Assembly (NCBI RefSeq): GCF_016811235.1
Contig: NZ_JAFBID010000019.1
Span: 1 to 64,000 of the forward strand
Direction: 5' to 3'
DNA from: Microvirga arabica
GTDB taxonomy: Bacteria > Pseudomonadota > Alphaproteobacteria > Rhizobiales > Beijerinckiaceae
Length of the DNA: 64,000 bases
In this document: in pieces, positions 44,868-64,000 of the stretch
Position numbering within the stretch: the first letter of the stretch is position 1
Layout of the letters: each line of letters begins with the position of its first letter
Notes under the pieces: model-generated
The model's input: only the letters and a program-made list of their open reading frames with translations
The model's database searches: none
What the model was told of the DNA's origin: nothing
Made by a program: the position numbers and the translations under genes

Positions 44868-44892
44868 AACGGGTCAGGCCTCCTGGCCCGTT
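44868..44892 (+). terminator. terminator of the catalase gene
   Basis: AACGGGTCAGG (44868-44878) pairs with CCTGGCCCGTT (44882-44892, one G-U), then CTTGTTTG. The descending arm runs into the 3' end of the converging YihY gene. Confidence 0.7.
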
Positions 44893-45764
44893 CTTGTTTG
44901 TGGCTCTGCCGTCCTGCGGCGTCCCCTTCGGCTCCCTCGGCTTTCCGCATAGGCCTTCGTGAACTCCGCGCCGAAGAGCAGGATCAGGGATGAATAATAG
45001 ATCCAGAGCAGGATCGTGATGATGGAGGCGGCGGCTCCGTAACTTGAGGCCACGTTGCTCTTGCCCAGATAGTAACCAATCAGGAACTTGCCGAGGGTGA
45101 ACAGGAGCGCGGTCACGAGGGATCCGGTCCAGACGTCGCTCCATTGAAGATCGACGGACGGCAGCAGCTTGAAGATCATCGCGAACAGCAGTGTGGCGAC
45201 CGCAAAGGCGACAAGACTGTTAAGGAACCGGAGGATGACAGTTGCGCCTGAGAAATTCGCCTCAAGATACGACCCGACGGCCGTGAGGCCCGTATCGATG
45301 ATTAAGGAAACGAGAAGCAGGAAACCGATGCCCAGCACCAGCGCGAGACTGATCAACCTGGTGCGGATGAAACTCATGACCCCATAGCTGGCAGGCGGTT
45401 TCGCCTTCCAGATGATGTTCAGGTCGTCCTGAAGCTCGACCACGGCTCCGGTCACCAGGAGCAGAAAGGTGATGATCCCGATCGTCATGCCGACGATGCC
45501 GGATCCGACATTGCTGGCGCTGGCAATCATCGCCTCAAGGGCCGAGGCTTCGTTGTTGCCGATCATGCCGCCGAGTTCCGCCACGATGGCGCCCTGTGCC
45601 GCATCCCGGCCGAAGGCAAGGCCGGCGACCGCAATGGCGGCGAGCAGCATCGGGGCCAGCGAAAAGACGGTGAAGAACGCAATGGAAGCGCCAAGGCTCA
45701 TGGCACGGTCGTTCCACCACCCTGCGAATGCCACCTTCAAGAGCTGCCATGTTTCGGAAAGCAT
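44874..45764 (-). CDS. YihY/BrkB family inner-membrane protein
   Basis: A 296-residue protein with six predicted membrane helices. Family landmarks are DRAMSLGASIAFFTVFSLAPMLL, FLNSLVAFAVATLLFAMIFKLLP and GAEFTKAYAE near the C terminus. Once called ribonuclease BN by mistake; its role is unknown, possibly lipid or solute transport. ATG 45764 gives the standard start; no clear ribosome binding site is seen. Confidence 0.88.
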   Translation of the reverse strand: MLSETWQLLKVAFAGWWNDRAMSLGASIAFFTVFSLAPMLLAAIAVAGLAFGRDAAQGAIVAELGGMIGNNEASALEAMIASASNVGSGIVGMTIGIITFLLLVTGAVVELQDDLNIIWKAKPPASYGVMSFIRTRLISLALVLGIGFLLLVSLIIDTGLTAVGSYLEANFSGATVILRFLNSLVAFAVATLLFAMIFKLLPSVDLQWSDVWTGSLVTALLFTLGKFLIGYYLGKSNVASSYGAAASIITILLWIYYSSLILLFGAEFTKAYAESRGSRRGRRRTAEPQTRTGQEA

Positions 45765-45823
45765 GCAAGAACCGATCCTGCCGGACGGATCGGTCCGGCC
45801 CCGCAAGTGTGTTGCCTTGGCGG

Positions 45824-48703: not shown

Positions 48704-49249
48704 AGGAAAGTTCTCCGGATAGAGCGAGCTGAAGGGGTAAGCCCCGATGAGTATTCAGGCGCTACAGACGATAGGCTCCATCGACCCATCGTCAACGGAT
48801 GCGGAGTGTGTTTGTTCATGAGAGGGGCAAGCCCTTGCTGCATTGCAGCAGGTAGCGGCTTTTCCACATGGTCACGCGCAATTGAATCGCCGGAGTCTAG
48901 CTTCCGTGCCGGCCCTTCCCACATCATAGGTAAGGGTTTGTGCTCGCTTGAGGAAAAGCCGTTTCATGAGTGTACGGGCGGCAATGCGGCACACCGAAAT
49001 GGGCTGCTGGCGAGAAACTTTAACTTGCCGTTGCGCCCGCAATCCGCGACGCTGTTTGTCAGGGCGGGCAAACTTCCAAGTCGCACAGACGGACCCGAGA
49101 TAAGCCCGATCTGCTGCGACCTGTTCATCAGCCGCCACAACGAAAGGGCTATGCCGCACCATTTGGCCGCATCACAGTATCGCATGGTCTGGGCAACCTT
49201 AGCGGTGCACAATCGTTGTCTCTGAGAGGGATTGGATTTCGGTGGCGCC
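48704..49249. other. 546-base intergenic region upstream of prkA
   Basis: No reading frame with coding character, no RNA gene recognised. A short inverted repeat TGCTGCA/TGCAGCA lies at 48836-48850. No GGAAC-N16/17-CGTT match was found. It must hold the divergent promoters of the alcohol dehydrogenase gene and prkA. Confidence 0.5.
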
Positions 49250-51196
49250 ATGCTTCATTCCGACGACCTGTTCTCGAGTTTCCTGAAGGCCTATGAGACC
49301 CGCCGCGAGGCGGAGATGTCCCTGGCGGAATACCTGGAAGGGTGCCGCACCGATCCCATGATGTATGCAAGCGCTCCGGAGCGCATCCTGGCGGCGATCG
49401 GCGAGCCTCAGCTCGTCGATACCTCGAAGGATGCGCGGCTCGGCCGCATCTTCATGAACCGCACCATCCGGGTCTATCCGGCCTTTTCCGAATTCTACGG
49501 TATGGAAGAGACGATCGAGATGATCGTCAGCTTCTTCCGTCACGCAGCCCAGGGCCTTGAGGAGCGCAAGCAGATCCTCTACCTGCTGGGCCCTGTCGGC
49601 GGCGGCAAGTCCTCCCTGGCCGAGCGTCTGAAGGCCCTGATGGAGGTCAACCCCATCTATGTTCTGAAGGCCGGCGACGAGATCAGCCCGGTCTTCGAGA
49701 GCCCGCTCGCGCTGTTCGACCCGGAGCAGATTGGCTCCGCGCTGGAGGAGCGCTACGGCATTCCCCGGCGGCGTCTGACCAACCTGCTCAGCCCATGGGC
49801 GATCAAGCGCCTCGATGAATTCAAGGGCGACATTTCCAAGTTCCGGGTGGTCAAGATCAACCCGTCCCGGATGCGGCAGATCGGCGTCGCCAAGACCGAG
49901 CCGGGCGATGAGAACAACCAGGATATCTCGTCCCTCGTCGGCAAGGTCGACATCCGCAAGCTTGAGACGCTCTCCCAGAACGATCCCGACGCTTACAGCT
50001 ATTCCGGCGGCCTCAACCGGGCGAACCAGGGCATCCTGGAATTCGTCGAGATGTTCAAGGCGCCGATTAAGATGCTCCATCCCCTGCTCACGGCTACGCA
50101 GGAGGGCAACTATGTCGGCACGGAGAACATCGGCTCCATTCCGTTCACCGGCATCATCCTGGCCCACTCCAACGAGGCGGAGTGGCAAACCTTCCGCACC
50201 AACAAGAATAACGAGGCGTTCATCGACCGCATCTACGTGATCAAGGTGCCTTATTGCCTGCGGGTCACGGAGGAGCAGAAGATCTACGAGAAGCTGATCC
50301 GCGGGTCGGAACTGGCAGGCGCCCCCTGCGCTCCGGCGACCCTGGAGATGCTGGCCCGGTTCTCGGTCCTGTCCCGCCTGCGGGCGCACGAGAACTCCAA
50401 CTTCTATTCGAAGATGCGGGTTTATGACGGCGAGAGCCTGCGCGAGGTCGATCCGCGTGCCCGCAGTCTGCAGGAGTACAAGGACTCAGCCGGTGTCGAC
50501 GAGGGCATGGACGGAATCTCGACCCGTTTCGCCTTCAAGGTCCTGTCCGCCACCTTCAACCATGACACCATCGAGGTGGCGGCGGATCCCGTGCACCTCA
50601 TGTACGTGCTCGAACAGTCGCTCCGGCGGGAGCAACTGCCGCAGGACGTGGAGCGGCGCTATCTGGAGTTCATCAAGGCAGAGCTTGCGCCGCGCTATGC
50701 TGACTTCATCGGCCACGAGATCCAGAAGGCCTATCTCGAATCCTACCACGATTACGGTCAGAACCTGTTCGACCGCTACGTGTCCTATGCGGATGCATGG
50801 ATCGAGGACCAGGACTTCAAGGATCCCGATACCGGCCAGCTTCTCAACCGGGAGCTCCTGAACCAGGAGCTGACCAAGGTCGAGAAACCGGCGGGTATCG
50901 CCAACCCGAAGGACTTCCGCAACGAGGTCGTGAAGTTCTCGCTCCGTGCGCGGGCCGGAAACAATGGCCGTAATCCATCTTGGACGAGTTACGAGAAGAT
51001 CCGTGACGTCATCGAACGGCGGATGTTCTCCCAGGTGGAGGAACTCCTGCCGGTAATCAGCTTCGGCTCCAAGAAGGACGGCGAGACCGAGAAGAAGCAC
51101 GGGGAGTTCGTGCAGCGGATGATGGAGCGTGGCTACACCGAGCGCCAGGTTCGGCGTCTCGTGGAGTGGTACATGCGGGTGAAGCAGGCGGGCTGA
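49250..51196 (+). CDS. prkA: PrkA family serine protein kinase (YeaG)
   Basis: A 648-residue AAA+ type kinase. Walker A is LGPVGGGKSSLAERL near residue 115, the AAA core continues through PFTGIILAHSNEAEW, and the C-terminal PrkA domain follows (HDYGQNLFDRYVSYADAW). E. coli YeaG has nearly the same length (644). It phosphorylates proteins under stress and starvation. ATG 49250 is chosen; TTG at 49232 with GAGAGGG upstream is an alternative adding six residues. First gene of prkA-yeaH-spoVR. Confidence 0.93.
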   Translation: MLHSDDLFSSFLKAYETRREAEMSLAEYLEGCRTDPMMYASAPERILAAIGEPQLVDTSKDARLGRIFMNRTIRVYPAFSEFYGMEETIEMIVSFFRHAAQGLEERKQILYLLGPVGGGKSSLAERLKALMEVNPIYVLKAGDEISPVFESPLALFDPEQIGSALEERYGIPRRRLTNLLSPWAIKRLDEFKGDISKFRVVKINPSRMRQIGVAKTEPGDENNQDISSLVGKVDIRKLETLSQNDPDAYSYSGGLNRANQGILEFVEMFKAPIKMLHPLLTATQEGNYVGTENIGSIPFTGIILAHSNEAEWQTFRTNKNNEAFIDRIYVIKVPYCLRVTEEQKIYEKLIRGSELAGAPCAPATLEMLARFSVLSRLRAHENSNFYSKMRVYDGESLREVDPRARSLQEYKDSAGVDEGMDGISTRFAFKVLSATFNHDTIEVAADPVHLMYVLEQSLRREQLPQDVERRYLEFIKAELAPRYADFIGHEIQKAYLESYHDYGQNLFDRYVSYADAWIEDQDFKDPDTGQLLNRELLNQELTKVEKPAGIANPKDFRNEVVKFSLRARAGNNGRNPSWTSYEKIRDVIERRMFSQVEELLPVISFGSKKDGETEKKHGEFVQRMMERGYTERQVRRLVEWYMRVKQAG

Positions 51197-51225
51197 CAGA
51201 AAACGGAGGCAGATCAGGCGTTCCT

Positions 51226-52533
51226 ATGTACATCATCGACCGGCGCCTCAACCCAGGGGGCAAGAGTCTGGCGAACCGCCAACGCTTCCTTCGCCGCGCG
51301 AAAGCGCAGATCCAGAGGGCGGTGCGCCAGACCGCAGGAGACCGGGACATCACCGATCTCGAACGGGGAGGGGAAATCACGATCCCCGCCGATGGTGTGC
51401 GCGAGCCCAGCTTCCGGCGCTCGGGCGAAGGCGGTGTGAATGACCACATCCTGCCCGGCAACAAGCGCTTTGTCGAAGGCGATACGATCAATCGCCCGCC
51501 CGGAGGCGGCGGTGGCGGTTCGGCCGGCGGTGACAATGGCGAGGGTGAGGACGATTTCCGCTTTGCCCTGACGCGCGATGAGTTTCTCGACCTGTTTCTC
51601 GACGATCTCGAACTGCCTGACCTCGCCAAGCGGCGGGTGGCAACGGTGGAGACGCAAGGGTTTCGGCGGGCAGGCTACACGGTCACGGGCTCCCCGGTGA
51701 ACCTGGCCCTGCTGCGCTCCATGCGGAACGCCCTGTCGCGCCGCATTGCCATGCGACGCCCCAAGCCAGAGGAACTGTTGCGCCTTGAGGAAGAGATTGA
51801 CCGGCTTGAGAAGCAGGAAGGTTCGTCCGAGCAGCTCACCGCACTGCGGCAGGAGCTTGAGCAGCTGAAGCTGCGTACCAAGCGCTTCCCTTATATCGAC
51901 CCGCTCGATCTGCGCTATCGCCGCTTCGAGCCGGTCTCCCGCCCGGTCGCGCAAGCGGTCATGTTCTGCCTGATGGATGTGTCAGGCTCCATGACGGAGC
52001 ACATGAAGGATCTCGCCAAGCGGTTCTATATGCTGCTCTACATCTTCCTGACGCGCCGCTACAAGCATGTGGAGATCGTCTTCATTCGGCATACGCACGA
52101 GGCGAAGGAGGTGGACGAGGAGACATTCTTCAACAGCCCGGAGACGGGCGGCACGGTGGTATCCTCGGCTTTGCGCGAGATGCAGCGGATCGTGGAGGAG
52201 CGCTACTCGCCGGACAGCTGGAACATCTACGCGGCTCAAGCCTCAGACGGCGACAACTCCCCCAATGACGGCAGCACCAGCGCGGCGCTGCTCAGGGACG
52301 TGATCCTGCCCGTCTGCCAGTACTACGCTTATCTGGAGGTCGGCAGCGACAGCGACCGGATGCAGACCGGCTTCATCAACCACAAGACGTCTCTGTGGCA
52401 GACCTATGAGACGCTGCAGGAGCAGGGCGCGAACCTTGCCATGCGCAAGGTCAACCACCGCCGCGAGATCTATCCCGTTTTCCGCGAACTCTTCCGTCGA
52501 CGTGACGCGGAGGCAGGAGCCAGGGTGCCATGA
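51226..52533 (+). CDS. yeaH: YeaH/YhbH family protein with VWA domain (UPF0229)
   Basis: A 435-residue protein. N-terminal conserved MYIIDRRLNPGGKSLANRQR, a flexible GGGGGSAGG stretch near residue 95, and a C-terminal von Willebrand A domain with the MIDAS motif CLMDVSGSMTEH. It works with PrkA (YeaG) in stress and nitrogen-starvation responses of enterobacteria. It starts 29 bases after prkA and overlaps spoVR by four bases (ATGA). Confidence 0.92.
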   Translation: MYIIDRRLNPGGKSLANRQRFLRRAKAQIQRAVRQTAGDRDITDLERGGEITIPADGVREPSFRRSGEGGVNDHILPGNKRFVEGDTINRPPGGGGGGSAGGDNGEGEDDFRFALTRDEFLDLFLDDLELPDLAKRRVATVETQGFRRAGYTVTGSPVNLALLRSMRNALSRRIAMRRPKPEELLRLEEEIDRLEKQEGSSEQLTALRQELEQLKLRTKRFPYIDPLDLRYRRFEPVSRPVAQAVMFCLMDVSGSMTEHMKDLAKRFYMLLYIFLTRRYKHVEIVFIRHTHEAKEVDEETFFNSPETGGTVVSSALREMQRIVEERYSPDSWNIYAAQASDGDNSPNDGSTSAALLRDVILPVCQYYAYLEVGSDSDRMQTGFINHKTSLWQTYETLQEQGANLAMRKVNHRREIYPVFRELFRRRDAEAGARVP

Positions 52534-54074
52534 GCCTGTTGGAGCACGACAACCTTCTGTTCCAGGGCGCCGACTGGGATTTCAGCCTGATCCAGCGCAT
52601 CCATGACGCCGTTGAGAAGATCGGCGTCGGGGAAATGGGGCTCAATGTCTACCCGAATCAGATCGAGGTCATCACCGCCGAGCAGATGCTCGACGCCTAT
52701 GCCTCCATCGGCATGCCCCTGTTCTACAAGCACTGGTCCTTCGGCAAGCGCTTCGCACTCCATGAGGCGAGCTACCGCCAGGGCTTCATGGGCTTGGCCT
52801 ATGAGATCGTGATCAACTCGAACCCGTGCATCTCCTACATCATGGAGGAGAATTCGGCCACGATGCAGACGCTCGTGATCGCCCACGCGGCCTTCGGGCA
52901 CAACCATTTCTTCAAGAACAACTATCTCTTCCAGGAATGGACGGACGCCGACGGGATCCTGGACTACCTCGAATTCGCGAAGGGCTACATCACCCGCTGC
53001 GAGGAGCGTTACGGCCATGCCGCCGTGGAGCGGGTGCTCGATGCCGCCCATGCCCTGATGTCCCACGGGGTCCACCGCTATCCGCGCAAGAAGCGCCCCA
53101 ATCTGCGCTCCGAGGAGCGGCGGGAGAAGGAGCGGCATCTCCATCTGGAGCAGACCTTCAACGACCTTTGGCGCACGGTGCCCACCAAGGGCGCTGCCTC
53201 AAAGCCGCAACTGAGCGACGAGCGCCGCCGCGCCCTCCTGGAGCTGCCGCAGGAAAACCTTCTGTACTTCCTCGAAAAGTCCGCCCCGCGCCTTCAGCCC
53301 TGGCAGCGGGAGATCCTGCGCATTGTTCGCCAGATCGCGCAGTATTTCTATCCGCAGCGACAGACCAAGGTGATGAACGAAGGCTGCGCCACCTATTGCC
53401 ATTACCGCATCATGACCCGCCTGCACGAGACGGGGCAGATCACCGATGGCGCCTTCCTCGAATTCCTGCAGTCGCACACGAACGTCACGCGCCAGCCGGA
53501 ATATGACGACCCGCATTACGGTGGCATCAATCCCTATGCCCTCGGCTTCGGCATGATGCAGGACATTGAGCGCATCTGCACCAAGCCCACGGCCGAGGAC
53601 CGGGAGTGGTTCCCCGAGATCGCCGGCAGCGGCAACACCATGGCGGTCCTGCGCGACGTGTGGGCCAACTACCGGGACGAGAGCTTCATCTCACAGTACC
53701 TGAGCCCGCACCTGATGCGCCAGTGGCGCATGTTCCATCTCGTGGACGACCCCGACCAACCTGAACTCAGGATCGAAGCCATCCACGACGAGCGCGGCTA
53801 TCGCCGGCTGCGGCGCTCCCTGTCGCGCCACTACGACGTTGGCTGGAGCGATCCCGACATTCAGGTGATCGACGTCGATCTCGCCGGCGACCGGCGCCTG
53901 ATCCTCCACCACCACGTCTTGAACCGGACGCTCCTGCACAAGGATGATGCACAGAGGGTCTTGCAGATGGTGGCCAATCTCTGGGGCTATGCGGTTGTGC
54001 TCAAGGAGGTCGAGCCCGCCACCGGGGCGATCTTCCAGGAACATGTGGCGCATCCGCACGAAACTCTCTTCTGA
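52530..54074 (+). CDS. spoVR: SpoVR family protein (YcgB-like)
   Basis: A 514-residue cytoplasmic protein of the SpoVR/YcgB family. Typical blocks are GLNVYPNQIEVITAEQML, GMPLFYKHWSFGKRF, HAAFGHNHFFKNNYLF and NEGCATYCHYRIM. In Bacillus it is needed for spore cortex formation; in non-sporing bacteria it belongs to a stress module with PrkA and YeaH, exactly as here. Translation is coupled to yeaH by ATGA overlap. Confidence 0.93.
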   Translation: MSLLEHDNLLFQGADWDFSLIQRIHDAVEKIGVGEMGLNVYPNQIEVITAEQMLDAYASIGMPLFYKHWSFGKRFALHEASYRQGFMGLAYEIVINSNPCISYIMEENSATMQTLVIAHAAFGHNHFFKNNYLFQEWTDADGILDYLEFAKGYITRCEERYGHAAVERVLDAAHALMSHGVHRYPRKKRPNLRSEERREKERHLHLEQTFNDLWRTVPTKGAASKPQLSDERRRALLELPQENLLYFLEKSAPRLQPWQREILRIVRQIAQYFYPQRQTKVMNEGCATYCHYRIMTRLHETGQITDGAFLEFLQSHTNVTRQPEYDDPHYGGINPYALGFGMMQDIERICTKPTAEDREWFPEIAGSGNTMAVLRDVWANYRDESFISQYLSPHLMRQWRMFHLVDDPDQPELRIEAIHDERGYRRLRRSLSRHYDVGWSDPDIQVIDVDLAGDRRLILHHHVLNRTLLHKDDAQRVLQMVANLWGYAVVLKEVEPATGAIFQEHVAHPHETLF

Positions 54075-55220: not shown

Positions 55221-56174
55221 ATGCGAGCTGCTGTTCTCACAGGACCTGGGCAGATCGAGGTCCGCCAGGTGGCGCGACCGGAGCCCGGCCCCGGTCAGGT
55301 GCGCCTGCGTCTGGAGGGGTGCGGCGTCTGCGCTTCGAACCTCACCCCTTGGGCAGGTCCGGAATGGATGCAGTATCCCACCGAGCCGGGTGCGCTCGGG
55401 CACGAAGCCTGGGGATTCGTGGATGCCGTCGGCGAGGGCGTCGAGTGTGTGTCGGTCGGCGACCGCGTTGCGGCGCTCTCCTACAAGTCCTATGCCGAGT
55501 ACGACATCGCCGATGCCGAGGCAGTCGTGCCGCTGCCGGAAGCGCTTGCAGGACAGCCTTTTCCCGGTGAGCCGCTCGGCTGCGCCATGAACATCTTCCG
55601 CCGCAGCGAGATCGAGGCGGGTCAGACCGTTGCGATCATCGGTATCGGCTTCCTCGGCGCCATCCTGACGAAACTGGCAACAGAAGCTGGCGCACGTGTG
55701 ATCGCGATTTCGCGCCGCCCCTTCTCGCTCGACCTCGCCCGCCGCATGGGTGCGGCCGAGACGATCCCGATGGAAGATCACCAAGCGATCATCGAGAGGG
55801 TGAAGGACCTGACGGGCGGGGTATTCTGCGATCGCGTGATCGAGGCGGTCGGCAAGCAATGGCCGTTGGATTTGGCCGGGGAACTCACCCGTGAGCGCGG
55901 CAAGCTGATCGTGGCCGGATATCATCAAGACGGCCCGCGACAGGTCAACATGTGGCTGTGGAACTGGCGTGGCATCGACGTGATCAATGCCCATGAGCGC
56001 GATCCCAAGATTTACATGCAGGGTCTCCGCGAAGCGGTGGAGGCCATTGCATCGGGCAGGCTCGATCCAAGTTTCCTCTACACCCATACTTACCCATTGG
56101 ACCGGCTGGACGAGGCGCTCGACGCCACACGTGACCGACCGGATGGATTTCTCAAAGCTCTGGTAACCTACTGA
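55221..56174 (+). CDS. zinc-type (MDR) dehydrogenase, sugar/polyol-like
   Basis: A 317-residue medium-chain dehydrogenase. GCGVCASNLTPW gives the catalytic zinc Cys with Asn instead of the usual Asp/His neighbour, GALGHEAWGFVD follows, and the Rossmann motif is IIGIGFLGAILTKLA. The structural zinc cluster is missing. The ATG at 55221 is conservative; in-frame TTG codons at 55143 and 55113 would extend it. Its stop overlaps the start of the Gfo/Idh/MocA gene (TGATG). Likely oxidises a cyclitol or sugar for the neighbouring cluster. Confidence 0.8.
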   Translation: MRAAVLTGPGQIEVRQVARPEPGPGQVRLRLEGCGVCASNLTPWAGPEWMQYPTEPGALGHEAWGFVDAVGEGVECVSVGDRVAALSYKSYAEYDIADAEAVVPLPEALAGQPFPGEPLGCAMNIFRRSEIEAGQTVAIIGIGFLGAILTKLATEAGARVIAISRRPFSLDLARRMGAAETIPMEDHQAIIERVKDLTGGVFCDRVIEAVGKQWPLDLAGELTRERGKLIVAGYHQDGPRQVNMWLWNWRGIDVINAHERDPKIYMQGLREAVEAIASGRLDPSFLYTHTYPLDRLDEALDATRDRPDGFLKALVTY

Positions 56175-57202
56175 TGGCGCAGCAGGCTCTTCGCAAGGAA
56201 CAGTTCGAAATCTCTCTTGCCCGTCCCCGCCTCGGTTTTCTCGGTGTCGGCTGGATCGGTCGACACCGCATGCAGGCGATCCTCGGCACGGGAGCGGTCG
56301 ATGTGGCTGCCATTGCCGATCCGTCGCCGGAAATGGCCTCGGAAGCAGGCAAGCTGGCGCCCGACGCAAAGCTGGTTTCGACGCTCGAGGAGATTCTCAG
56401 TACGGGTGTCGATGGTGTGGTGATCGCAACGCCAAGCGCCATGCATGCAGATCAGTCGATCCGCGCGCTGGAGCGCGGTGTTGCGGTGTTCTGCCAGAAG
56501 CCGCTTGGGCGTAACGTGGCGGAGGTGCAGGCGGTGGTGGATGCCGCGCGCAAGGCCGACCGGCTGCTCTGCGTCGATCTCTCCTACCGCTTCACGGAAG
56601 GCATGCGGCGCATTCGCGAGATCATCGACTCAGGCGAACTGGGGCATATCTATGCCGTAGACTTGGTGTTCCACAACGCCTATGGCCCGGACAAGCCCTG
56701 GTTCTACGATCCGGCTCTCTCCGGCGGCGGCTGCGTGATGGACCTCGGCGTTCACCTGGTGGATCTGGCGTTGTGGAGCCTGAACAATCCCGGCATCGCC
56801 AGCGTCACGGGCAAGCTCTTTGCAGACGGCGTGCCGCTGAGGGACTCGACCGCTCAAGTCGAAGATTATGCGGTTGCGACCGTGGAGCTGGAAACCGGCG
56901 CCGTGGTGCAGCTCGCCTGCTCCTGGCGCTTGCAGGCCGGGTGCGATGCGATGATTTCTGCGACTTTCTATGGCACGCAAGGCGGCGTATCGTTGCGCAA
57001 CGTGAACGGATCCTTCTACGATTTCACCGCGGAGCGCTATCGCGGCACGTCCCGTGAGACATTGACCTCGCCTCCCGACGAGTGGGGCGGGCGGGCGGCA
57101 GCCGACTGGGCCTCACGGTTGGCGGCGGGCGAGCGGTTCGACCCTGCTGCAAATCACCTCGTCGATGTCGCTCGTGTGCTGGACCGGATCTACGGGCGAT
57201 AG
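56174..57202 (+). CDS. Gfo/Idh/MocA family oxidoreductase (inositol-dehydrogenase-like)
   Basis: A 342-residue NAD-dependent dehydrogenase. Rossmann motif GFLGVGWIGRHRMQAIL, catalytic Lys in VFCQKPLGRN (K-P), and DLGVHLVDLALW with the likely catalytic His. The family includes myo- and scyllo-inositol dehydrogenases. It is coupled to the preceding MDR gene and converges on the glycosidase/ino1 operon, so an inositol- or NDP-sugar-derived substrate is reasonable. Ends at a strong terminator. Confidence 0.85.
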   Translation: MAQQALRKEQFEISLARPRLGFLGVGWIGRHRMQAILGTGAVDVAAIADPSPEMASEAGKLAPDAKLVSTLEEILSTGVDGVVIATPSAMHADQSIRALERGVAVFCQKPLGRNVAEVQAVVDAARKADRLLCVDLSYRFTEGMRRIREIIDSGELGHIYAVDLVFHNAYGPDKPWFYDPALSGGGCVMDLGVHLVDLALWSLNNPGIASVTGKLFADGVPLRDSTAQVEDYAVATVELETGAVVQLACSWRLQAGCDAMISATFYGTQGGVSLRNVNGSFYDFTAERYRGTSRETLTSPPDEWGGRAAADWASRLAAGERFDPAANHLVDVARVLDRIYGR

Positions 57203-57232
57203 GGCGACTTCTACAGAGCTGAAAATGAGGGA

Positions 57233-57257
57233 GGCGGCTGAACCCGGTTCAGCCGCC
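57233..57257. terminator. strong terminator between converging operons
   Basis: GGCGGCTGAAC (57233-57243) and GTTCAGCCGCC (57247-57257) form an 11-bp perfect stem with a CCG loop, followed by TTTTCG on the plus strand. Confidence 0.85.
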
Positions 57258-57282
57258 TTTTCGTCGACCGTTCAACGCTCCG

Positions 57283-58212
57283 TCAGAGCACTTCCAGAAC
57301 CTTGCTGGCCGGTGCCGACTGGCTGGCTGGGGCATAGCGCCGGATCATGGTGGCGCAGAACTCAGCGAACTCTTCCTTCACCTGCGGGGCGCTGGTGTGA
57401 TGCGGCGCGATTCCGCGATGCTCCGGCGTGAAGCAGAAGGTCACCGTCACATCGAAGTCGGCGAGAGCCTCCATCTGGCGGTCGAACCAGTCCATCGCAT
57501 TGGGGCGGAAGCTATCGGCCCACGACAGGCCTGTGCGCAGATACTTTACGCCCAGCCGCTTCATCCAGGTCACCGCATCATCGAGACGATGATCCTCAAA
57601 GTGGAACCACTGGCACAGGCCCATTTGGGATGCGTATTTCGCATATTCCTCGAGAGCGGGCTTCGGCGTGCCGTCCTCGCGCAGAAGGCCCATGTAGAAG
57701 TGGCGGTAATAGGAGGAGCCTTCCGCCTCCCGGTGCCGCGTGGTGGCCTCCCAGGCGCGGGGCAGGTCGTAAAGGCTGTACCAGTGGATCTTTGGCACCT
57801 TGCCGATTAGAAGCTCCGCGGTTCTGTTCAGGCCCCAGACCTGCACTTCCTCGGCCCCGAAGGTGGAGATGCCGACCTCGCTGACCCAAATCGGTTTATC
57901 CGTCACCGCCCGGATCTCATCGATCTTCGCCGGCCATTCGTGGATCTGCCATAGGTTCCAGTCGAGCGGGAAGCCGTGAACGGCCACGACGTCGAGATGC
58001 TCCATGGCACCGTGACTTTCCAGCTTCTTGATGAAGCCGGGATCGATGGGCGAGATGCCGCCGAGCACCCGGGGCAGGTTGGGGTTCTCGCCCTTGATCG
58101 CCTGACCAGCGGCAATCACCATGTCGGAGAAGAGCTTCCAATCCGGATCGATCTCCGGATCCCAGTGGGATTTGTTGTTCGGCTCGTTCCAGATCATTGC
58201 AGCTTCGATCAT
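57283..58212 (-). CDS. clan GH-A glycosidase-like protein, apparently circularly permuted
   Basis: A 309-residue protein. The acid/base motif IWNEPNN is at residues 7-13 (E10), normally found near the middle of a GH-A/GH39-type TIM barrel. The nucleophile motif IWVSEVGIST has E112. A typical barrel end (YRHFYMGLLREDGTPKP) comes at 169-184. After residue 196 a typical barrel beginning appears: RLDDAVTWMKRLGVKYLRTG, then VTFCFTPEHRG and FAEFCATMIRRYA. So the two halves are in swapped order. The ATG at 58212 overlaps the methyltransferase stop (ATGA). No signal peptide, so it acts in the cytoplasm. See findings. Confidence 0.75.
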   Translation of the reverse strand: MIEAAMIWNEPNNKSHWDPEIDPDWKLFSDMVIAAGQAIKGENPNLPRVLGGISPIDPGFIKKLESHGAMEHLDVVAVHGFPLDWNLWQIHEWPAKIDEIRAVTDKPIWVSEVGISTFGAEEVQVWGLNRTAELLIGKVPKIHWYSLYDLPRAWEATTRHREAEGSSYYRHFYMGLLREDGTPKPALEEYAKYASQMGLCQWFHFEDHRLDDAVTWMKRLGVKYLRTGLSWADSFRPNAMDWFDRQMEALADFDVTVTFCFTPEHRGIAPHHTSAPQVKEEFAEFCATMIRRYAPASQSAPASKVLEVL

Positions 58213-58982
58213 GCGGTTCTCCCTTGGGCCGGGTAGACGGCGCCCGCGCCGGGCGGGGCATCGACACGGCGGCAGATGTAAACTTCGGCTTCCGGGTGCT
58301 GGACGATCTCGAACCCGGTGCTGCGGAGCATGGCTTCCACGCAAGCCGCATTCGGCGCCCACCAGTTGGTCGGATCGTCGGCATAGCGATGCTCGATGAA
58401 GTGCATCTTCGGGTAGCGCGGATCCTCGAAATGCTCCGTCTGCCAGAAGGTGTAGTTCTCATCGACCGGCATGATCTCCGCCGAGCCGCGCTGCATCGAC
58501 TGGAACACGAGGAGGTCCTTGGCCACGTGCTCGTGAATAAGATCAAGGGCGAGAAGTGGATGGCGCAGGTGGTAGAGGACGCCCATGAAGAGCACCACGT
58601 CGAATGTCTCGCCAAGCTGCCCGAGGTCGTAGACGGAGAGCTTGCGGAACTCGATGTCGTGGCCCATCGTCTGGGCGGCAAAACGGGCCTGGGCAAGATA
58701 CGAATCGTCGAAGTCGACACCCAGCACGCGCTCCGCTCCGCGCTTCTTCATCTCCATGGAGTAGAAGCCGCCGTTGCAGCCGATGTCGAGCACGCTCTTG
58801 CCTGTGAGGTCTTCCGGGATCGCACTGGCGAATTGCTGCCACTTCACGGCAGGGTAGTTGCCGAGAAAGTGGTCGGGCGCGGTCCAGACGCCGCCTTTCA
58901 GCTCGATGTTGTGGAACCAAGGGCCAAGCGCTTCGGCCTTGCGGCGGATTTCTTCCGGGGGCATTGGGTCGATTGCGTTCAT
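58209..58982 (-). CDS. SAM-dependent methyltransferase, CmoB-like (TIGR04290-type)
   Basis: A 257-residue class I methyltransferase. SAM motif VLDIGCNGGFYSMEM near residue 80, then GVDFDDSYLAQARF and FMGVLYHLRHPLLALD, which resembles the tRNA-modifying CmoB. Relatives in proteobacterial sugar clusters (as I recall, TIGR04290) are regarded as natural-product or glycan methyltransferases. It is between the nucleotidyltransferase (8 bases upstream) and the glycosidase-like gene (overlap). Likely methylates a sugar or cyclitol hydroxyl or carboxyl group. Confidence 0.82.
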   Translation of the reverse strand: MNAIDPMPPEEIRRKAEALGPWFHNIELKGGVWTAPDHFLGNYPAVKWQQFASAIPEDLTGKSVLDIGCNGGFYSMEMKKRGAERVLGVDFDDSYLAQARFAAQTMGHDIEFRKLSVYDLGQLGETFDVVLFMGVLYHLRHPLLALDLIHEHVAKDLLVFQSMQRGSAEIMPVDENYTFWQTEHFEDPRYPKMHFIEHRYADDPTNWWAPNAACVEAMLRSTGFEIVQHPEAEVYICRRVDAPPGAGAVYPAQGRTA

Positions 58983-58990
58983 CGTGGAGT

Positions 58991-59809
58991 CTACTCCCTG
59001 TTCAAATCATGGAGGCCGCGCGGCAGCCGGCCGGCCGGCCAGCCCAGGGCCACCCGCGCGCCTGTGACGTTCTCCTGCTGAGCCGCTTCGCTCAACAAAC
59101 CAATGGCGGATCGATAGCCATGGAGCGTCCCAACATCGACATAGGACACGCCGGCCTTGACTCCGATGGCCTCGCCGCCTTGGGCCAGATAGGCGTTCAC
59201 CAGAGTGCCGAAATATTCATCCTCGCGATTGCGCGCGAGCCAGAGCTGGCGCAGCGCTTCGAGGACGTGGCCCGGCATTTTAAAGGCTCCCCAGATCCAA
59301 CGGGAGGATGCGTCCTCCCGCTTCACTTGGATCTCCTGCACGCGCATCGTCTCATCCAGAACGACAGCGTCAAAAACCTGCGGGTTATCAACCGGGAAGA
59401 GCAGGAACGAGAGCATTTCTTCCGGAAGTTCCGCAAGCGCCGTCTCGGGAAACCAGACCGTGTCGGGCAGGCCGACGATCACGCTCTCGTCCGCCGGGAT
59501 CAGGGGAGCGGCCTGGAAGATGGCGTCGCACAAGCCGCTCGCCTGCGGCTGCACCACATAGGCAATCGAGGCGCTGCCGTAGCTTGCGCCGTAATACTCC
59601 ATGATGTCGGATTTGCCGGGGGAGATCACGAAGCAGATCTTGTCGGCGCCGCCATGGATCATGCGCTCGACGAGGTACTCGCTCACCGCGCAGGGCCGCT
59701 CGATCCCGTTGTCGAGGCGGCTGCCCACCGGGAGAAGCTCCTTCGAGAAAGCCAGCGGCTGAATGCGGCTGCCGATCCCTGCCGCGGGTATGATGCCCCA
59801 CATGGTCAT
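58991..59809 (-). CDS. sugar-1-phosphate nucleotidyltransferase
   Basis: A 272-residue GT-A-fold nucleotidyltransferase. Nucleotide motif IPAAGIGSRIQPLAFSKELL with G-x-G-x-R and the K-E-L-L-P-V element, then VQPQASGLCDAI and VGLPDTVWFP with the metal Asp. The C terminus SYVDVGTLHGYRSAI is typical of glucose-1-phosphate thymidylyl- or uridylyltransferases. It should supply the NDP-sugar donor for the glycosyltransferase, with whose gene it overlaps by four bases. Confidence 0.88.
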   Translation of the reverse strand: MTMWGIIPAAGIGSRIQPLAFSKELLPVGSRLDNGIERPCAVSEYLVERMIHGGADKICFVISPGKSDIMEYYGASYGSASIAYVVQPQASGLCDAIFQAAPLIPADESVIVGLPDTVWFPETALAELPEEMLSFLLFPVDNPQVFDAVVLDETMRVQEIQVKREDASSRWIWGAFKMPGHVLEALRQLWLARNREDEYFGTLVNAYLAQGGEAIGVKAGVSYVDVGTLHGYRSAIGLLSEAAQQENVTGARVALGWPAGRLPRGLHDLNRE

Positions 59810-60915
59810 GCCTCCATCATGGCGGCGGAGCCGCCGGTCGAGGATGGGATGGAACTGGCGCTCTCCAGCAGGAACTCAAGCTCACGGGCCCGGTGCTCCG
59901 AGGTGTGCTCGGCGAGAACCCGCTCGCGGCCGGCGCCGGCGATGCGCTTCAGCTCCGCATCCGTCAGGTCGAGGGCGCTGACGGTATCTTCGCTTGCTGT
60001 GGCAATAAGAATTTCCCGATCGGGTGTGAGGAAGCTGTCGAGTCCTTCCCAGGTGTCGGACAGAATCGGCGCGCCGCAGGCTGCCGCCTCGAACAGGCGG
60101 CCCGAGGGGCACCACCCCATGTCCGCCATGGTCTGACGGGTGATGTTGAGCGTCAGGCGCGAGGACGAGAAGAAGGCAGGATGCTCGGACGGCGGCAGAT
60201 GGCGGACGAAAGAGATGTTGGGCTGCCAGGGGAAATCGGCAGGATACTGCGCGCCGCCAATCAGGAAACGCCGCTTCGGGCGCAGGCCCGCGGGATCGAT
60301 GAACAGGCGCTGCAGGGCCGCCTGACGATCCGCCGCATAGGTGCCGAGATAGGAGAGATCCGACCTGTAATGATCGGCCGGATGCACCGGGTGGTGGACG
60401 TCGGGATCCACGTGCCCGTAAAGGGGCGCAACGCGGCAGGCTCCGAGCTCCGATCGAAGCCTGTCGAGAGCGCGACCGCCGGTATAGCTGAGCGCGAGGT
60501 CGAAATCGCGCAGGCCGCGTGGTCCGATATAGGTGATGGGCTCTCCGGCCTCCAGGCGTGAGAAGGTGACCGGCGTGTCGAGATCGTAGAACACATGGAG
60601 CGGGCGAGGCGCAGCGAGCAGGAGCTCGCTCGCCGCGATGCCGTCCGGGCAATAGGAGGTTGCCATGGCCACATCCGCGTCGACCAGCTCTGCCGCGGCC
60701 CGTTGACGGATATCGTCCCAATCCTGGTAGAGGACGAGATCGCCGCCCGGGATCTCGAAGAGATCCCGGTTCGCGGCATAATAGGGCACATCCTTTTCGA
60801 AGAACACCACCCTGTGTCCACGCTTCGCAAGGGCGCGGATGAGACCTCGCCAGAGCGTCGCGTGGCCATTGCCCCAGGATGAGGAGATGGTGAGCCCGAA
60901 AATGACGATCTTCAT
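59806..60915 (-). CDS. CgeB-like glycosyltransferase (GT-B fold)
   Basis: A 369-residue glycosyltransferase. N-terminal Rossmann half begins MKIVIFGLTISSSWGNGHAT; the donor half has LTLNITRQTMADMGWCPSGR and LFEAAACGAPILSDTWEGL, the glycosyl transferase family 1_2 motif known from spore-coat CgeB. No membrane helices. The ATG at 60915 overlaps the phosphatase stop (ATGA). It is the only glycosyltransferase in the cluster, so one glycosidic bond is probably made, possibly to inositol or inositol phosphate. Confidence 0.87.
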   Translation of the reverse strand: MKIVIFGLTISSSWGNGHATLWRGLIRALAKRGHRVVFFEKDVPYYAANRDLFEIPGGDLVLYQDWDDIRQRAAAELVDADVAMATSYCPDGIAASELLLAAPRPLHVFYDLDTPVTFSRLEAGEPITYIGPRGLRDFDLALSYTGGRALDRLRSELGACRVAPLYGHVDPDVHHPVHPADHYRSDLSYLGTYAADRQAALQRLFIDPAGLRPKRRFLIGGAQYPADFPWQPNISFVRHLPPSEHPAFFSSSRLTLNITRQTMADMGWCPSGRLFEAAACGAPILSDTWEGLDSFLTPDREILIATASEDTVSALDLTDAELKRIAGAGRERVLAEHTSEHRARELEFLLESASSIPSSTGGSAAMMEA

Positions 60916-61511
60916 GCGGCCACCACCTCGTTCAGACGCAATACCTTGGAACCCCAATCGCCGACCACGAGGGTGCTGATGGAGGCAGGCTCGATATCGA
61001 AGCGCGCATAGGCGTCAATCGGCAGACCGAGATGGTAGAGCAGGGCGGCCTTGATCACGTCGCTGTGGCTGACGAGGATGATGGACCGATCCGCGTAGCG
61101 CTGGTGCAAACGCTCGATGGCGCCCACGATGCGTGCCTGAGCCTCAAGCATCGTCTCCCCATAGGGCGGACGGCTGTTGCTGCGGGCCTTGTTCCATGCC
61201 GACCAGCGGGGATCCTGCGCCAGAGCCTCGAAGCTTGTGCCGGACCATGCCCCGAAGTCGATCTCAGCGATGTCCTCGCAAATTTCAAGCGGCTGCTCGA
61301 GGCGAGCCGCGATCGGTTCGGCAGTCTCCACGGCCCGCTCAAGAGGGCTTGTGTGAATGCCGGCAATGGTCTCGTTGGCGAAGCGTTCCGCCAGCCGCTC
61401 GGCCTGAGCTTTCCCAACATCCCCAAGGTGAACGCCGGGAATGCGTCCGCACAGGATCGTGCCGACCCTGTCATGGGCCGCATGACGCACAAGATGGAAC
61501 GTGGCGGTCAC
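60912..61511 (-). CDS. histidine phosphatase family protein
   Basis: A 199-residue phosphatase of the phosphoglycerate-mutase-like superfamily. Catalytic motif is LVRHAAHDR (R-H-A instead of R-H-G), second block HTSPLERAVETAEPIA, the Glu-loop is EIDFGAWSG, and the second His is in ILVSHSDVIKAAL. Members include glucosylglycerate and alpha-ribazole phosphatases. It lies 12 bases after ino1 and could dephosphorylate inositol-3-phosphate or a glycosyl-inositol phosphate. Confidence 0.87.
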   Translation of the reverse strand: MTATFHLVRHAAHDRVGTILCGRIPGVHLGDVGKAQAERLAERFANETIAGIHTSPLERAVETAEPIAARLEQPLEICEDIAEIDFGAWSGTSFEALAQDPRWSAWNKARSNSRPPYGETMLEAQARIVGAIERLHQRYADRSIILVSHSDVIKAALLYHLGLPIDAYARFDIEPASISTLVVGDWGSKVLRLNEVVAA

Positions 61512-61523
61512 CTCCTGGTGCCT

Positions 61524-62606
61524 CTACTCTTCATCACCGTCGATGAAGCGAATGGTTCTCTCGCGGGCCTCGTTGTCGGTGAACTGCTGCGGCGGCGACT
61601 TCATGAAATAGCTGGAGGGGCCAGTCAGAGCGCCACCGATCTTGCGGTCCAGGGCAAGCTTCGCGCAGCGCACCGCATCGATCACGATGCCGGCGGAATT
61701 GGGCGAATCCCAGACTTCGAGCTTTACCTCCATGTTCAGCGGCACGCCGCCGAAGGTGGTGCCTTCCAGGCGGATATAGGCCCATTTGCGGTCCGTGAGC
61801 CACGGCACGTGATCGCTCGGCCCCACATGGATGTCGCCGGCGGGCAGGGGGATATCGAGCTGGCTGGAGACGGCCTGAGTCTTGGAGATCTTCTTGGATT
61901 CCAGGCGCTCCCGCTCCAGCATGTTCTGGAAGTCGGTGTTGCCGCCGAAATTGAGCTGGTAGGTTCGGTCGAGCCGCACGCCGCGCTCGCGGAAAAGGTT
62001 GGCGAGCACGCGATGCACGATGGTGGCGCCGACCTGGCTCTTGATGTCGTCACCCACTATGGGAAGCCCGCGCTCTTCGAAGCGCTTGCGCCATTCCGGA
62101 TTGGACGCGATGAAGACCGGAACGCAGTTGACGAAGGCGCAGCCCGCGTCCAGCGCCCGCTCGGCATACCATTCCGTTGCCTTCTGGGATCCTACGGGCA
62201 GATAGGAGACCAAGACATCCGTCTTGGACTGGCGCAATATCTCCGTGACGTCGGCCTCATCCTGCTCCGATTCCGCGATTTCCTCGCGCAGATACTTGCC
62301 GAGACCGTCGAGGGTCCTGCCGCGATGAACGATGATCCCGCTCTCCGCAACGGCCGCGAAGCGCTGTGTATTGTTTGGCTCGGCGAAAATCGCCTCCGAG
62401 ATGTCGCGGCCGACCTTCGAGGCGTTGATGTCGAAAGCTGCGGACACTTCGACATCGCTAATATGATATCCGCCAATGTCCACATTCATGAGTCCGGGCA
62501 CGGGCTCGTTGCCCTTGGCGTCCTTGTAGTAGGAAAGGCCCTGCACGAAGGACGAGGCACAATTGCCGACGCCCACGATCCCGACGCGGACCTTTCTCGA
62601 AATCAT
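61524..62606 (-). CDS. ino1: inositol-3-phosphate synthase, prokaryotic type
   Basis: Converts glucose-6-phosphate to 1D-myo-inositol-3-phosphate with NAD. The 360-residue length is that of the short bacterial/archaeal type. NAD motif [19 protein letters not shown]; core blocks [29 protein letters not shown] and [11 protein letters not shown] carry the catalytic Lys residues; [10 protein letters not shown] is the conserved end. First gene of the six-gene minus-strand operon. A perfect EcfG-type promoter lies 105 bases upstream. Inositol synthesis is uncommon in Proteobacteria and points to a dedicated product. Confidence 0.95.
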
Positions 62607-62710
62607 GACGATTCTCCCTTGTGCGGTCAGCCGATTGCCTGCATTCTTGAGGCGCGCCCATAGACGGCAGCAGGCAAGTACCGGGCGGCATCATCCCAAG
62701 CTTGGCCGTC

Positions 62711-62736
62711 AACGTTCGAGAAAGGTATGTAGTTCC
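62711..62736 (-). promoter_or_regulatory. EcfG-type general stress promoter of the ino1 operon
   Basis: On the minus strand: GGAAC (62736-62732), 17-base spacer, CGTT (62714-62711), full consensus. Leader of about 100 bases to the ino1 ATG. Confidence 0.65.
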
Positions 62737-62803
62737 CTCTCTCGATTCCTGGCTTGGGTCTCTTGTCTTAGCGCGCCGGCGCCCAAACTACTCAGCAGGT
62801 GCA

Positions 62804-62828
62804 GGAACAAAGATGAAGCTTTGGCGTT
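62804..62828 (+). promoter_or_regulatory. EcfG-type general stress promoter of the epimerase gene
   Basis: GGAAC (62804-62808), 16-base spacer, CGTT (62825-62828), full consensus on the plus strand. It is back to back with the ino1 promoter, 67 bases away, within the 406-base divergent region (62607-63012) that otherwise shows no gene. Confidence 0.65.
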
Positions 62829-63012
62829 TCCAATGCGAAAGGCCAAGCTTGCTAGGGGCACGTGGTGTGACCGACGCCTGATGCGGTCCGCCAATGCCTC
62901 ATCCTGTCTGGAATCTGCGAAGGTCTCGTGTCGCTCTTTCCAGCCAAGGAGCGGGATTTCTCCCGTTTTGCTCATTGGCTCGATGAATCGACAACAGATC
63001 CGGAGTCATGTC

Positions 63013-64000
63013 GTGACGGATACCATCCTCATTACCGGCGGTGCGGGCTTTATCGGACGTTACGTTGCTCGGGCCTGCCTGGAGCGCGGCCACCGGGTTC
63101 GCGTGCTCGACAGCCTCATCGAGCAGGTTCACGGCGACAAGACGCAGGCCGACGGGCTCGATCCCGAGGTCGAGGTGGTCGTGGGGGATGTTCGTGACGA
63201 GACGGCGGTTCTGAGGGCCCTGAAAGGCACCACCAAGGTGGTCCACCTCGCGGCGGAGGTCGGCGTCGGTCAGAGCATGTACGCCGTCGACCGCTATGTC
63301 TCCGTGAACGATTACGGCACCGCGGTGCTGTTCCAGCAGCTCATCGATAATCCGGTCAAGCGCGTGGTCGTCGCCTCGTCCATGAGCATCTATGGCGAAG
63401 GCCTCTACAAGGATGCGGACGGACGGGTGCGCGAAGATGTCGTGCGCACGCCTCGCGCGACCGAGAACGACCCTTGGGATCCCCTCGACGAGCAGGGGCG
63501 CCCCCTCGTTCCCGTGCCGACGCCGGAATGGAAAAAGCCGGCGCTCGCCTCCGTCTATGCCTTGTCGAAATATGTTCAGGAGCGACTGACGCTGACTCTC
63601 TGCCCGGCTTATGGCATGGAGGGTGTCGCGCTCAGGCTCTGGAACGCCTATGGCCCTGGGCAGGCCCTGTCCAATCCCTATACCGGTGTTCTCGCAATCT
63701 TTGCATCCCGGCTCCACAACGGTCAGCCGCCGATGATTTTTGAGGACGGCCAGCAGCGCCGCGATTTCGTGCACGTCGAAGACGTGGCGCAAGCCTTCGT
63801 CCTGGCGCTCGAGCACGAGAAGGCGCCGGGCAACGTCTACAACGTCGGCAGCGGTCAGGATCGCACCGTCTCCGAAGTCGCGGAGCTTCTGTCTCAGGCC
63901 ATGGACCGGCCCATGGCGCCGGAGATTGCCGGCAAGGCCCGCATCGGCGACATCCGTCACTGCATCGCCGACATCACGAGGATCCGGCAGGAGTTGGGCT
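63013..64000 (+). CDS. NAD-dependent epimerase/dehydratase (extended SDR), 3' end cut by window
   Basis: At least 329 residues of a nucleotide-sugar epimerase/dehydratase. NAD motif ITGGAGFIGRYVARACLERG, then VVHLAAEVGVGQSMY, the active-site Y-x-x-x-K in SVYALSKYVQERL, LWNAYGPGQALSNPYTGV and DGQQRRDFVHVEDVA. The GTG at 63013 has GGAG seven bases upstream; an in-frame ATG at 62983 would add ten residues. An insert around DPWDPLDEQGRPLVPVP is longer than in GalE. It probably modifies the NDP-sugar used by the divergent operon. The gene runs past the window end. Confidence 0.88.
   Translation, partial: MTDTILITGGAGFIGRYVARACLERGHRVRVLDSLIEQVHGDKTQADGLDPEVEVVVGDVRDETAVLRALKGTTKVVHLAAEVGVGQSMYAVDRYVSVNDYGTAVLFQQLIDNPVKRVVVASSMSIYGEGLYKDADGRVREDVVRTPRATENDPWDPLDEQGRPLVPVPTPEWKKPALASVYALSKYVQERLTLTLCPAYGMEGVALRLWNAYGPGQALSNPYTGVLAIFASRLHNGQPPMIFEDGQQRRDFVHVEDVAQAFVLALEHEKAPGNVYNVGSGQDRTVSEVAELLSQAMDRPMAPEIAGKARIGDIRHCIADITRIRQELG

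Follow-up and report, generated by a model that had tools for sequence, protein, structure and literature searches.

A predicted methylated-glycan gene cluster of Microvirga arabica with a putative circularly permuted clan GH-A-like glycosidase

A densely packed gene group in Microvirga arabica, which combines inositol synthesis with glycosyltransferases and a glycosidase-like protein, raises the question of what it makes and how the glycosidase takes part. The group reaches the end of a window of 64,000 nucleotides (bases 1-64000 of the 93.7-kb contig NZ_JAFBID010000019.1, whose numbering is used throughout). We propose, with a probability of about 0.5, that a cluster under general-stress control builds a soluble, O-methylated, cytosolic hetero-oligosaccharide, for which inositol would be one of two exchangeable building-block choices. 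The evidence comes from the glycosidase itself, a second version of the cluster, gene co-occurrence and promoter motifs.

The glycosidase-like protein (309 residues, hereafter pGH) gave no domain match at E 0.001 in its native order, the matches of Pfam below this cut-off being Glyco_hydro_cc (E 0.011) and GH53 (E 0.025). Its N-terminus reads MIEAAMIWNEPNN, which we take to be the acid/base motif on strand beta-4 of the clan GH-A enzymes. VSEVG, presumably the beta-7 nucleophile motif, follows, and the apparent strands beta-1 to beta-3 come last. The chain order is beta4-8 then beta1-3, beginning at strand beta-4 and stopping after helix alpha-3, and not the canonical beta1-beta8 order. A truncated or mis-started gene was ruled out by the conserved start codon and by upstream in-frame stops. 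Among the best 80 of 475 glycosidase-matching stretches in genome contigs (the 80 loci below), the start lies at the same position in 79, as ATG in 68 and GTG in 11; in L100, a GTG lies shortly before the match. In-frame stops were found one to four codons upstream of the start in L072, L077, L092, L116 and L123.

Homologues in canonical order were also present. In those of genomes G018 and G031, the parts matching query residues 192-294 and 197-294, respectively, stand upstream of the part matching 2-184. A native-order profile of 51 sequences matched each of the six canonical proteins in two main parts whose order was exchanged, and after rotation at residue 191 it matched all six as one main domain, from positions 3-6 to 290, with 118-141 bits. 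Rotations at 40, 80, 120, 150 and 240 gave lower best-domain scores, that at 150 by just 3-9 bits. PslG, the closest solved relative, matched in native order as two swapped pieces of 23.0 and 5.6 bits, the second weak alone. A rotated profile covered PslG in a single stretch (9-292 of 297; 37 bits, E 1.3e-8); it had four members, so that its scores are not strictly comparable with those for the native order. E10 (in NEPNN) and E112 (in VSEVG) are invariant and align with NEPN and TEWG of PslG. Assuming acid/base and nucleophile roles for them, we propose these residues as the catalytic pair.

Pfam hardly discriminates the permutation, since rotating the window protein changed the Glyco_hydro_cc match only to E 0.0029. 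GH39 was likewise weak, with a best E of 0.034 for the rotated sequence and no listing for the native order. AlphaFold2 predicted a barrel (mean pLDDT, the per-residue confidence, 80.4; pTM 0.83) whose eight strands run as a beta4-8, beta1-3 arrangement would require; residues 150-172 were poorly modelled though highly conserved. VIA-align and Foldseek align in chain order, and because of this the permuted barrel matched barrels of many kinds. Only five Foldseek matches reached E 0.001, with query TM-scores of at most 0.40, and neither search bears on the permutation one way or the other. By sequence comparison, pGH is a circularly permuted PslG/GH39-like barrel, probably of clan GH-A. A limited literature search, which may have missed a paper, found no natural circular permutant of this clan, and as far as it shows pGH is a previously unreported natural permutant of a clan GH-A-like barrel. 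The permuted protein starts directly at beta-4 and has no room for a signal peptide; we expect a retaining glycosidase that stays intracellular. Two further weak glycosidase matches (31-33% identity) occur in genome G038, in open reading frames of 587 and 850 residues.

The features of the cluster are as follows, with the basis of each assignment in brackets.

55221..56174, plus strand: zinc-binding dehydrogenase (MDR), core gene (PF00107/PF08240)
56174..57202, plus strand: Gfo/Idh/MocA oxidoreductase (Gfo), core gene (PF01408/PF22725)
57283..58212, minus strand: pGH, predicted permuted PslG/GH39-like clan GH-A glycosidase, 309 residues (sequence comparison, E10 and E112)
58209..58982, minus strand: S-adenosylmethionine-dependent methyltransferase, CmoB-like, TIGR04290 (NCBIfam)
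58991..59809, minus strand: RmlA/GalU-like sugar-1-phosphate nucleotidyltransferase (PF00483; RmlA structures, E 7e-7)
59806..60915, minus strand: CgeB1, CgeB-type glycosyltransferase (PF13524, 2.6e-39)
60912..61511, minus strand: histidine phosphatase, branch 1, GTG start (PF00300, 1.8e-47)
61524..62606, minus strand: Ino1, 1D-myo-inositol-3-phosphate synthase (similarity to 1gr0)
62711..62736, minus strand: EcfG-type motif GGAAC-N17-CGTT of the ino1 operon (pattern match)
62804..62828, plus strand: EcfG-type motif GGAAC-N16-CGTT of the epimerase/glycosyltransferase operon (pattern match)
63013..64125 (window ends at 64000), plus strand: SDR1, NAD-dependent epimerase/dehydratase of the short-chain dehydrogenase/reductase (SDR) type, first gene of the plus-strand core operon
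ends at 65237, beyond the window, plus strand: SDR2, CDP-tyvelose-2-epimerase-like (solved relatives)
65280-66410, beyond the window, plus strand: GT4 glycosyltransferase
66407-67519, beyond the window, plus strand: CgeB2
67516-68610, beyond the window, plus strand: CgeB3
ends at 69716, beyond the window, plus strand: CgeB4
69826-70854, beyond the window, plus strand: UXS-like SDR (UDP-glucuronate-decarboxylase-like)

The six minus-strand genes are real and overlap or nearly touch (57283-62606). With the start codons picked in this analysis, the spacings along the run, from ino1 to the glycosidase gene, are 12 nt, a 4-nt overlap, a 4-nt overlap, 8 nt and a 4-nt overlap. The MDR and Gfo pair converges on this run, and SDR1 diverges from ino1. 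Coordinates and domain matches thus agree with a first-pass annotation of the window, which had described this same layout, and Pfam and NCBIfam support the identities of the minus-strand genes other than the glycosidase-like protein. The methyltransferase passes the curated cut-off of TIGR04290 (384.6 bits against 300). The limit at 64000 given by that annotation is the window edge only; the cluster runs about 7 kb further, to about 70854, and in total holds five glycosyltransferases, three SDRs, one methyltransferase and one glycosidase. The open reading frame of MDR is open from 55113, with a likely ATG start at 55221. Its best NCBIfam match was keto_inos_dh_IolM (92 bits, far under the cut-off of 450), and that of Gfo was IolG (108 bits against 355). 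The best solved relatives of SDR2 are CDP-tyvelose 2-epimerases (E 1.6e-80), and the annotated S. meliloti record lists the counterpart of the UXS-like SDR as UDP-glucuronic acid decarboxylase. Upstream of MDR lies an operon (49232-54074, plus strand) which we take to be PrkA/YeaH/SpoVR; it stands beside the cluster in 16 of the 80 loci, all Microvirga. Two membrane protein genes, YihY-like by eye, were found at 44874-45806 in the window and at 71116-72324 on the contig (both minus strand), the latter directly after the core operon.

Comparison of loci revealed two versions of the cluster. Both share a core of the methyltransferase, the UXS-like SDR, CgeB2-4, GT4, SDR1 and SDR2, to which MDR and Gfo usually belong. 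In version A this core is joined by ino1, the histidine phosphatase and the permuted glycosidase, and optionally by CgeB1 with its nucleotidyltransferase. Version B possesses a canonical-order glycosidase fused to SDR2, and was found in six loci (L033, L042, L157, L158, L167 and L168, of which L157 and L158 belong to two R. etli strains). Their glycosidases are encoded in open reading frames of 693-784 residues, with an SDR2-like domain C-terminal to the glycosidase (Pfam on one of them). All six loci carry the methyltransferase, the UXS-like SDR, CgeB2-4, GT4, SDR1 and SDR2; MDR and Gfo are present in five and were not seen in L168. Neither ino1, the phosphatase, CgeB1 and its nucleotidyltransferase nor the permuted gene was found in any of the six within the 15-29 kb viewed. 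MDR and Gfo are thus not required to be inositol-specific enzymes, being kept in the inositol-free loci L033, L042, L157, L158 and L167. The methyltransferase is retained in all the inositol-free loci, and MDR and Gfo in most, so that none of the three need act on inositol. Beside MDR and Gfo, both R. etli loci also hold another nucleotidyltransferase-type gene, together with genes for a phosphoesterase, an alcohol dehydrogenase and an SDR (L157:22311-26355), which might supply an alternative building block. The first-pass annotation missed both the circular permutation and the inositol-free clusters with a canonical glycosidase.

The form of the glycosidase tracks the presence of ino1 also at genome level. 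All 49 searched genomes with a permuted glycosidase had an ino1 match (42 of 42 relatives and 7 of 7 Methylobacterium), and none of the four searched genomes with the canonical form did (G018, G031, G402, G452). The seven Methylobacterium genomes carry ino1 away from the glycosidase locus. Within the host genus (48 genomes), 29 possess the permuted gene and ino1, two the canonical form without ino1, and 17 neither; two ino1 matches were found in G032, a genome of the 29 with 9% contamination. In a set of 150 genomes, consisting of the own genome and relatives, an ino1 match without a glycosidase match occurred in 13, among them G093 and two genomes where the ino1 match is weak; around ino1 in G069 and G108, the two genomes viewed, no other cluster gene lay within 20 kb. 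This tracking suggests that the glycosidase acts on the end that carries inositol, either transferring or cleaving there. A bolder version seems doubtful to us: the product would be a new stress glycan of Alphaproteobacteria with two chemotypes set by the glycosidase, the permuted form attaching the glycan to inositol as an intracellular transglycosidase, the canonical epimerase fusion serving another end unit, and the permutation having accompanied the change of acceptor.

The genes form a single biosynthetic set, as first annotated, and a check for scattered homologues among the relatives found them co-occurring. The 44 of 150 genomes with a glycosidase match (E 1e-6), the own genome among them, are exactly those with a CgeB3 match (E 1e-60); these relatives are not independent, so that significance values overstate the case. 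The methyltransferase was above the cut-off in 44 of the 150, with 43 shared, the mismatches being G084, where it is a contig-edge fragment, and the extra genome G093, where the gene lies on an 8-kb contig. The 80 loci extend over at most about 21 kb, and gene counts around their glycosidase matches are lower bounds: at least 74 for the phosphatase, 73 for the methyltransferase, 71 for ino1, 65 for CgeB3, 63 for CgeB2, 59 for GT4, 54 for SDR1, 53 for SDR2, 45 for CgeB4, 44 each for CgeB1 and the nucleotidyltransferase, 33 each for MDR and Gfo, and 21 for the UXS-like SDR. CgeB1 and the nucleotidyltransferase occur in the same 44 loci, never one without the other there, and the latter is an optional partner of the former. 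Gene order varied among the 80 loci and gene content was stable.

The cluster is present on pSymB of S. meliloti, at about 243-260 kb in strain 2011, and, among the 80 loci, also in relatives from Azospirillum, Methylobacterium and Roseomonas. Plasmids of Roseomonas and Azospirillum carry the glycosidase adjoining the methyltransferase, and only that pair was seen there. A draw of 398 genomes across the phylum gave a glycosidase match in 14, including the own genome, with none outside the class. An extra GT4-type glycosyltransferase gene (L112:5754-6902) occurs in 20 of the 80 loci, under nine genus labels and in 2 of 22 Microvirga loci, and starts 40-106 nt past the permuted glycosidase match in 12 of 19 measured. 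The S. meliloti cluster also encodes a 582-residue protein (L141:10330-12078) without Pfam match, whose E 1e-8 matches in 38 of the 80 loci are possibly a low-complexity artefact.

The cluster ino1 is the sole ino1 match in the host genome. Its product is identical to M. tuberculosis Ino1 (1gr0) at about 223 of 354 aligned residues (about 63%), and is closer to 1gr0 (490 bits) than to the five-membered-cyclitol-phosphate synthase 6k96 (209 bits); against TIGR03450 it scored 551.2 bits, under the curated cut-off of 638. The likeness to 1gr0 supports the Ino1 of the first-pass annotation. The methylated sugar-inositol conjugate suggested there as product underestimates a cluster with five glycosyltransferases and three SDRs. 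The mycothiol pathway, already regarded as unsupported, was rejected: in the host genome MshC (237 bits against 485), MshA (83 against 462.5) and MshB (22.5 against 224) stayed under their cut-offs, each of which was passed by one of 14 controls. The MshC match (G000:C55:89970-91169) is presumably the housekeeping cysteinyl-tRNA synthetase.

The pattern GGAAC-N15-18-CGTT occurs eight times in the window against 1.44 expected, and none of 100 shuffles reached eight. Two of these EcfG-type motifs stand divergently inside the 406-bp gap between ino1 and SDR1; the six others lie at 7713, 17499, 22532, 36605, 44866 and 59406, the last inside the nucleotidyltransferase gene. They agree with the published EcfG-type motif GGAAC-N17-20-GTT, as given in an excerpt of PMC6599016, and with ggAAC-N16-cgTT of R. 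etli, from an excerpt of PMC4167512. A strict form (GGAAC-N16-17-CGTT) precedes ino1 in 20 of 22 Microvirga loci and SDR1 in 14 of 21. For the loose form (GGAAC-N15-18-NTT), 49 of 71 loci have a match upstream of ino1, where simple shuffles predict about 4.2; all 22 Microvirga and all 12 Mesorhizobium loci are among the 49. The S. meliloti cluster and the two R. etli clusters carry the loose form as well, in their case without a control. Stress control had been part of the first-pass annotation, and the promoter motifs now support, at the level of sequence, an EcfG general-stress control of the cluster.

In the proposed pathway, Ino1 and the phosphatase would supply myo-inositol, or the phosphatase may act on a glycosyl-inositol phosphate. 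The SDRs with MDR and Gfo would shape nucleoside diphosphate (NDP) sugars, from which the CgeB and GT4 enzymes would assemble the chain, and the methyltransferase would decorate or cap it. The glycosidase may then transfer a glycan block to the end unit, or cleave mature chains into primers as MmpH does. The inositol-containing product is read from gene content, and all statements on chemistry and cellular location are inferred. Regarding export, the flippase family PF01943 had no match on the cluster contig, and no transporter was recognised among the recurring neighbour genes in an incomplete look.

The main rival, tentative and clearly below the cytosolic oligosaccharide in probability, is a cell-surface or secreted polysaccharide, a lipopolysaccharide decoration or a glycolipid, with chains edited or released by the glycosidase. 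PslG, the closest solved relative, edits or releases Psl chains, and CDP-tyvelose 2-epimerases, nearest to SDR2, are O-antigen enzymes. However, the permuted glycosidase, beginning at beta-4, leaves no space for a signal peptide, and the genes examined included no recognisable initiating phosphoglycosyl transferase, flippase or polymerase. The S. meliloti cluster is followed by F420-hydrogenase-like and polysaccharide pyruvyl transferase genes (L141:14876-17351), a pair that recurs in L098, L115 and L123 with 54-63% identity.

Several observations weigh against the cytosolic oligosaccharide of a stress-controlled cluster. A surface glycan is hinted at by the pyruvyl transferase gene that adjoins the cluster in S. 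meliloti, L098, L115 and L123. PF01943 matches exist on contigs C60 and C22 of the genome; export genes can lie elsewhere, and other transporter families were not searched. Genomes G022, G060, G067 and G143 have CgeB3 on another contig or about 78 kb to about 3 Mb off the glycosidase, and the glycosidase match of G099, one of the 42 relatives, contains a stop codon. The ino1 search covered only four canonical-form genomes. The strict motif is nearly confined to Microvirga, with 2 of 49 other loci carrying it upstream of ino1, and the loose motif was found in 0 of 5 Azospirillum, 0 of 3 Belnapia, 0 of 2 Alsobacter, 0 of 2 Pararoseomonas and 2 of 10 Roseomonas loci.

A small, galactinol-like glycosyl-inositol acting as compatible solute under osmotic or desiccation stress is unlikely. 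While ino1, phosphatase and glycosyltransferase under stress-type motifs would suit it, five glycosyltransferases, along with three SDRs, one methyltransferase and one glycosidase, seem more than a disaccharide would call for, and the inositol-free versions show stress-type motifs too. Catabolism or salvage of plant or microbial methylated glycosides and inositol is very improbable: MDR and Gfo weakly resemble inositol dehydrogenases (below cut-offs) and some records name the glycosidase beta-xylosidase, but the cluster genes include no recognised sugar transporter, and Ino1 and nucleotide-sugar enzymes are biosynthetic.

The methyltransferase family TIGR04290 is already modelled as a hypothetical equivalog, and the cluster has therefore been glimpsed before. 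No paper on the cluster or its product was found in the limited literature search, which may have missed one. A biosynthetic set conserved in soil and plant-associated bacteria, including model rhizobia as on S. meliloti pSymB, seems to be without an assigned product. If true, the cytosolic oligosaccharide would account for inositol synthesis in many of these bacteria and offer a stress metabolite that can be tested for. The unpermuted relative in sister clusters allows direct comparison of structure and reaction.

Among known systems, PslG (GH39, Pseudomonas Psl) is encoded with glycan-synthesis genes and resembles pGH in the full-length barrel match once the order is rotated and in the alignment of both proposed catalytic glutamates. 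In contrast to PslG, the Microvirga enzyme appears permuted, lacks a signal peptide and stands in a methyltransferase and ino1 context. Mycothiol biosynthesis has the same type of Ino1, phosphatase and glycosyltransferase, and differs by the Msh enzymes that stayed below cut-off in the host. GH70 and GH13_19 belong to the alpha-amylase clan. Natural circular permutation is known in GH70 glucansucrases and MalS (GH13_19), according to an excerpt of PMC10223318. Unlike these, the Microvirga enzyme is clan GH-A-like, and its canonical relative sits in a sister cluster. The closest working precedent, by analogy, is the mycobacterial methylmannose polysaccharide: the part of PMC9883506 consulted describes an O-methylated glycan whose glycosyltransferase, methyltransferases and dedicated hydrolase are encoded together (ManT, MeT1, pMeT3 and MmpH), the MmpH-type hydrolase making primers from mature chains. 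The likeness in glycosyltransferase, methyltransferase and hydrolase is one of description, and the Microvirga cluster is larger, alphaproteobacterial and equipped with inositol genes.

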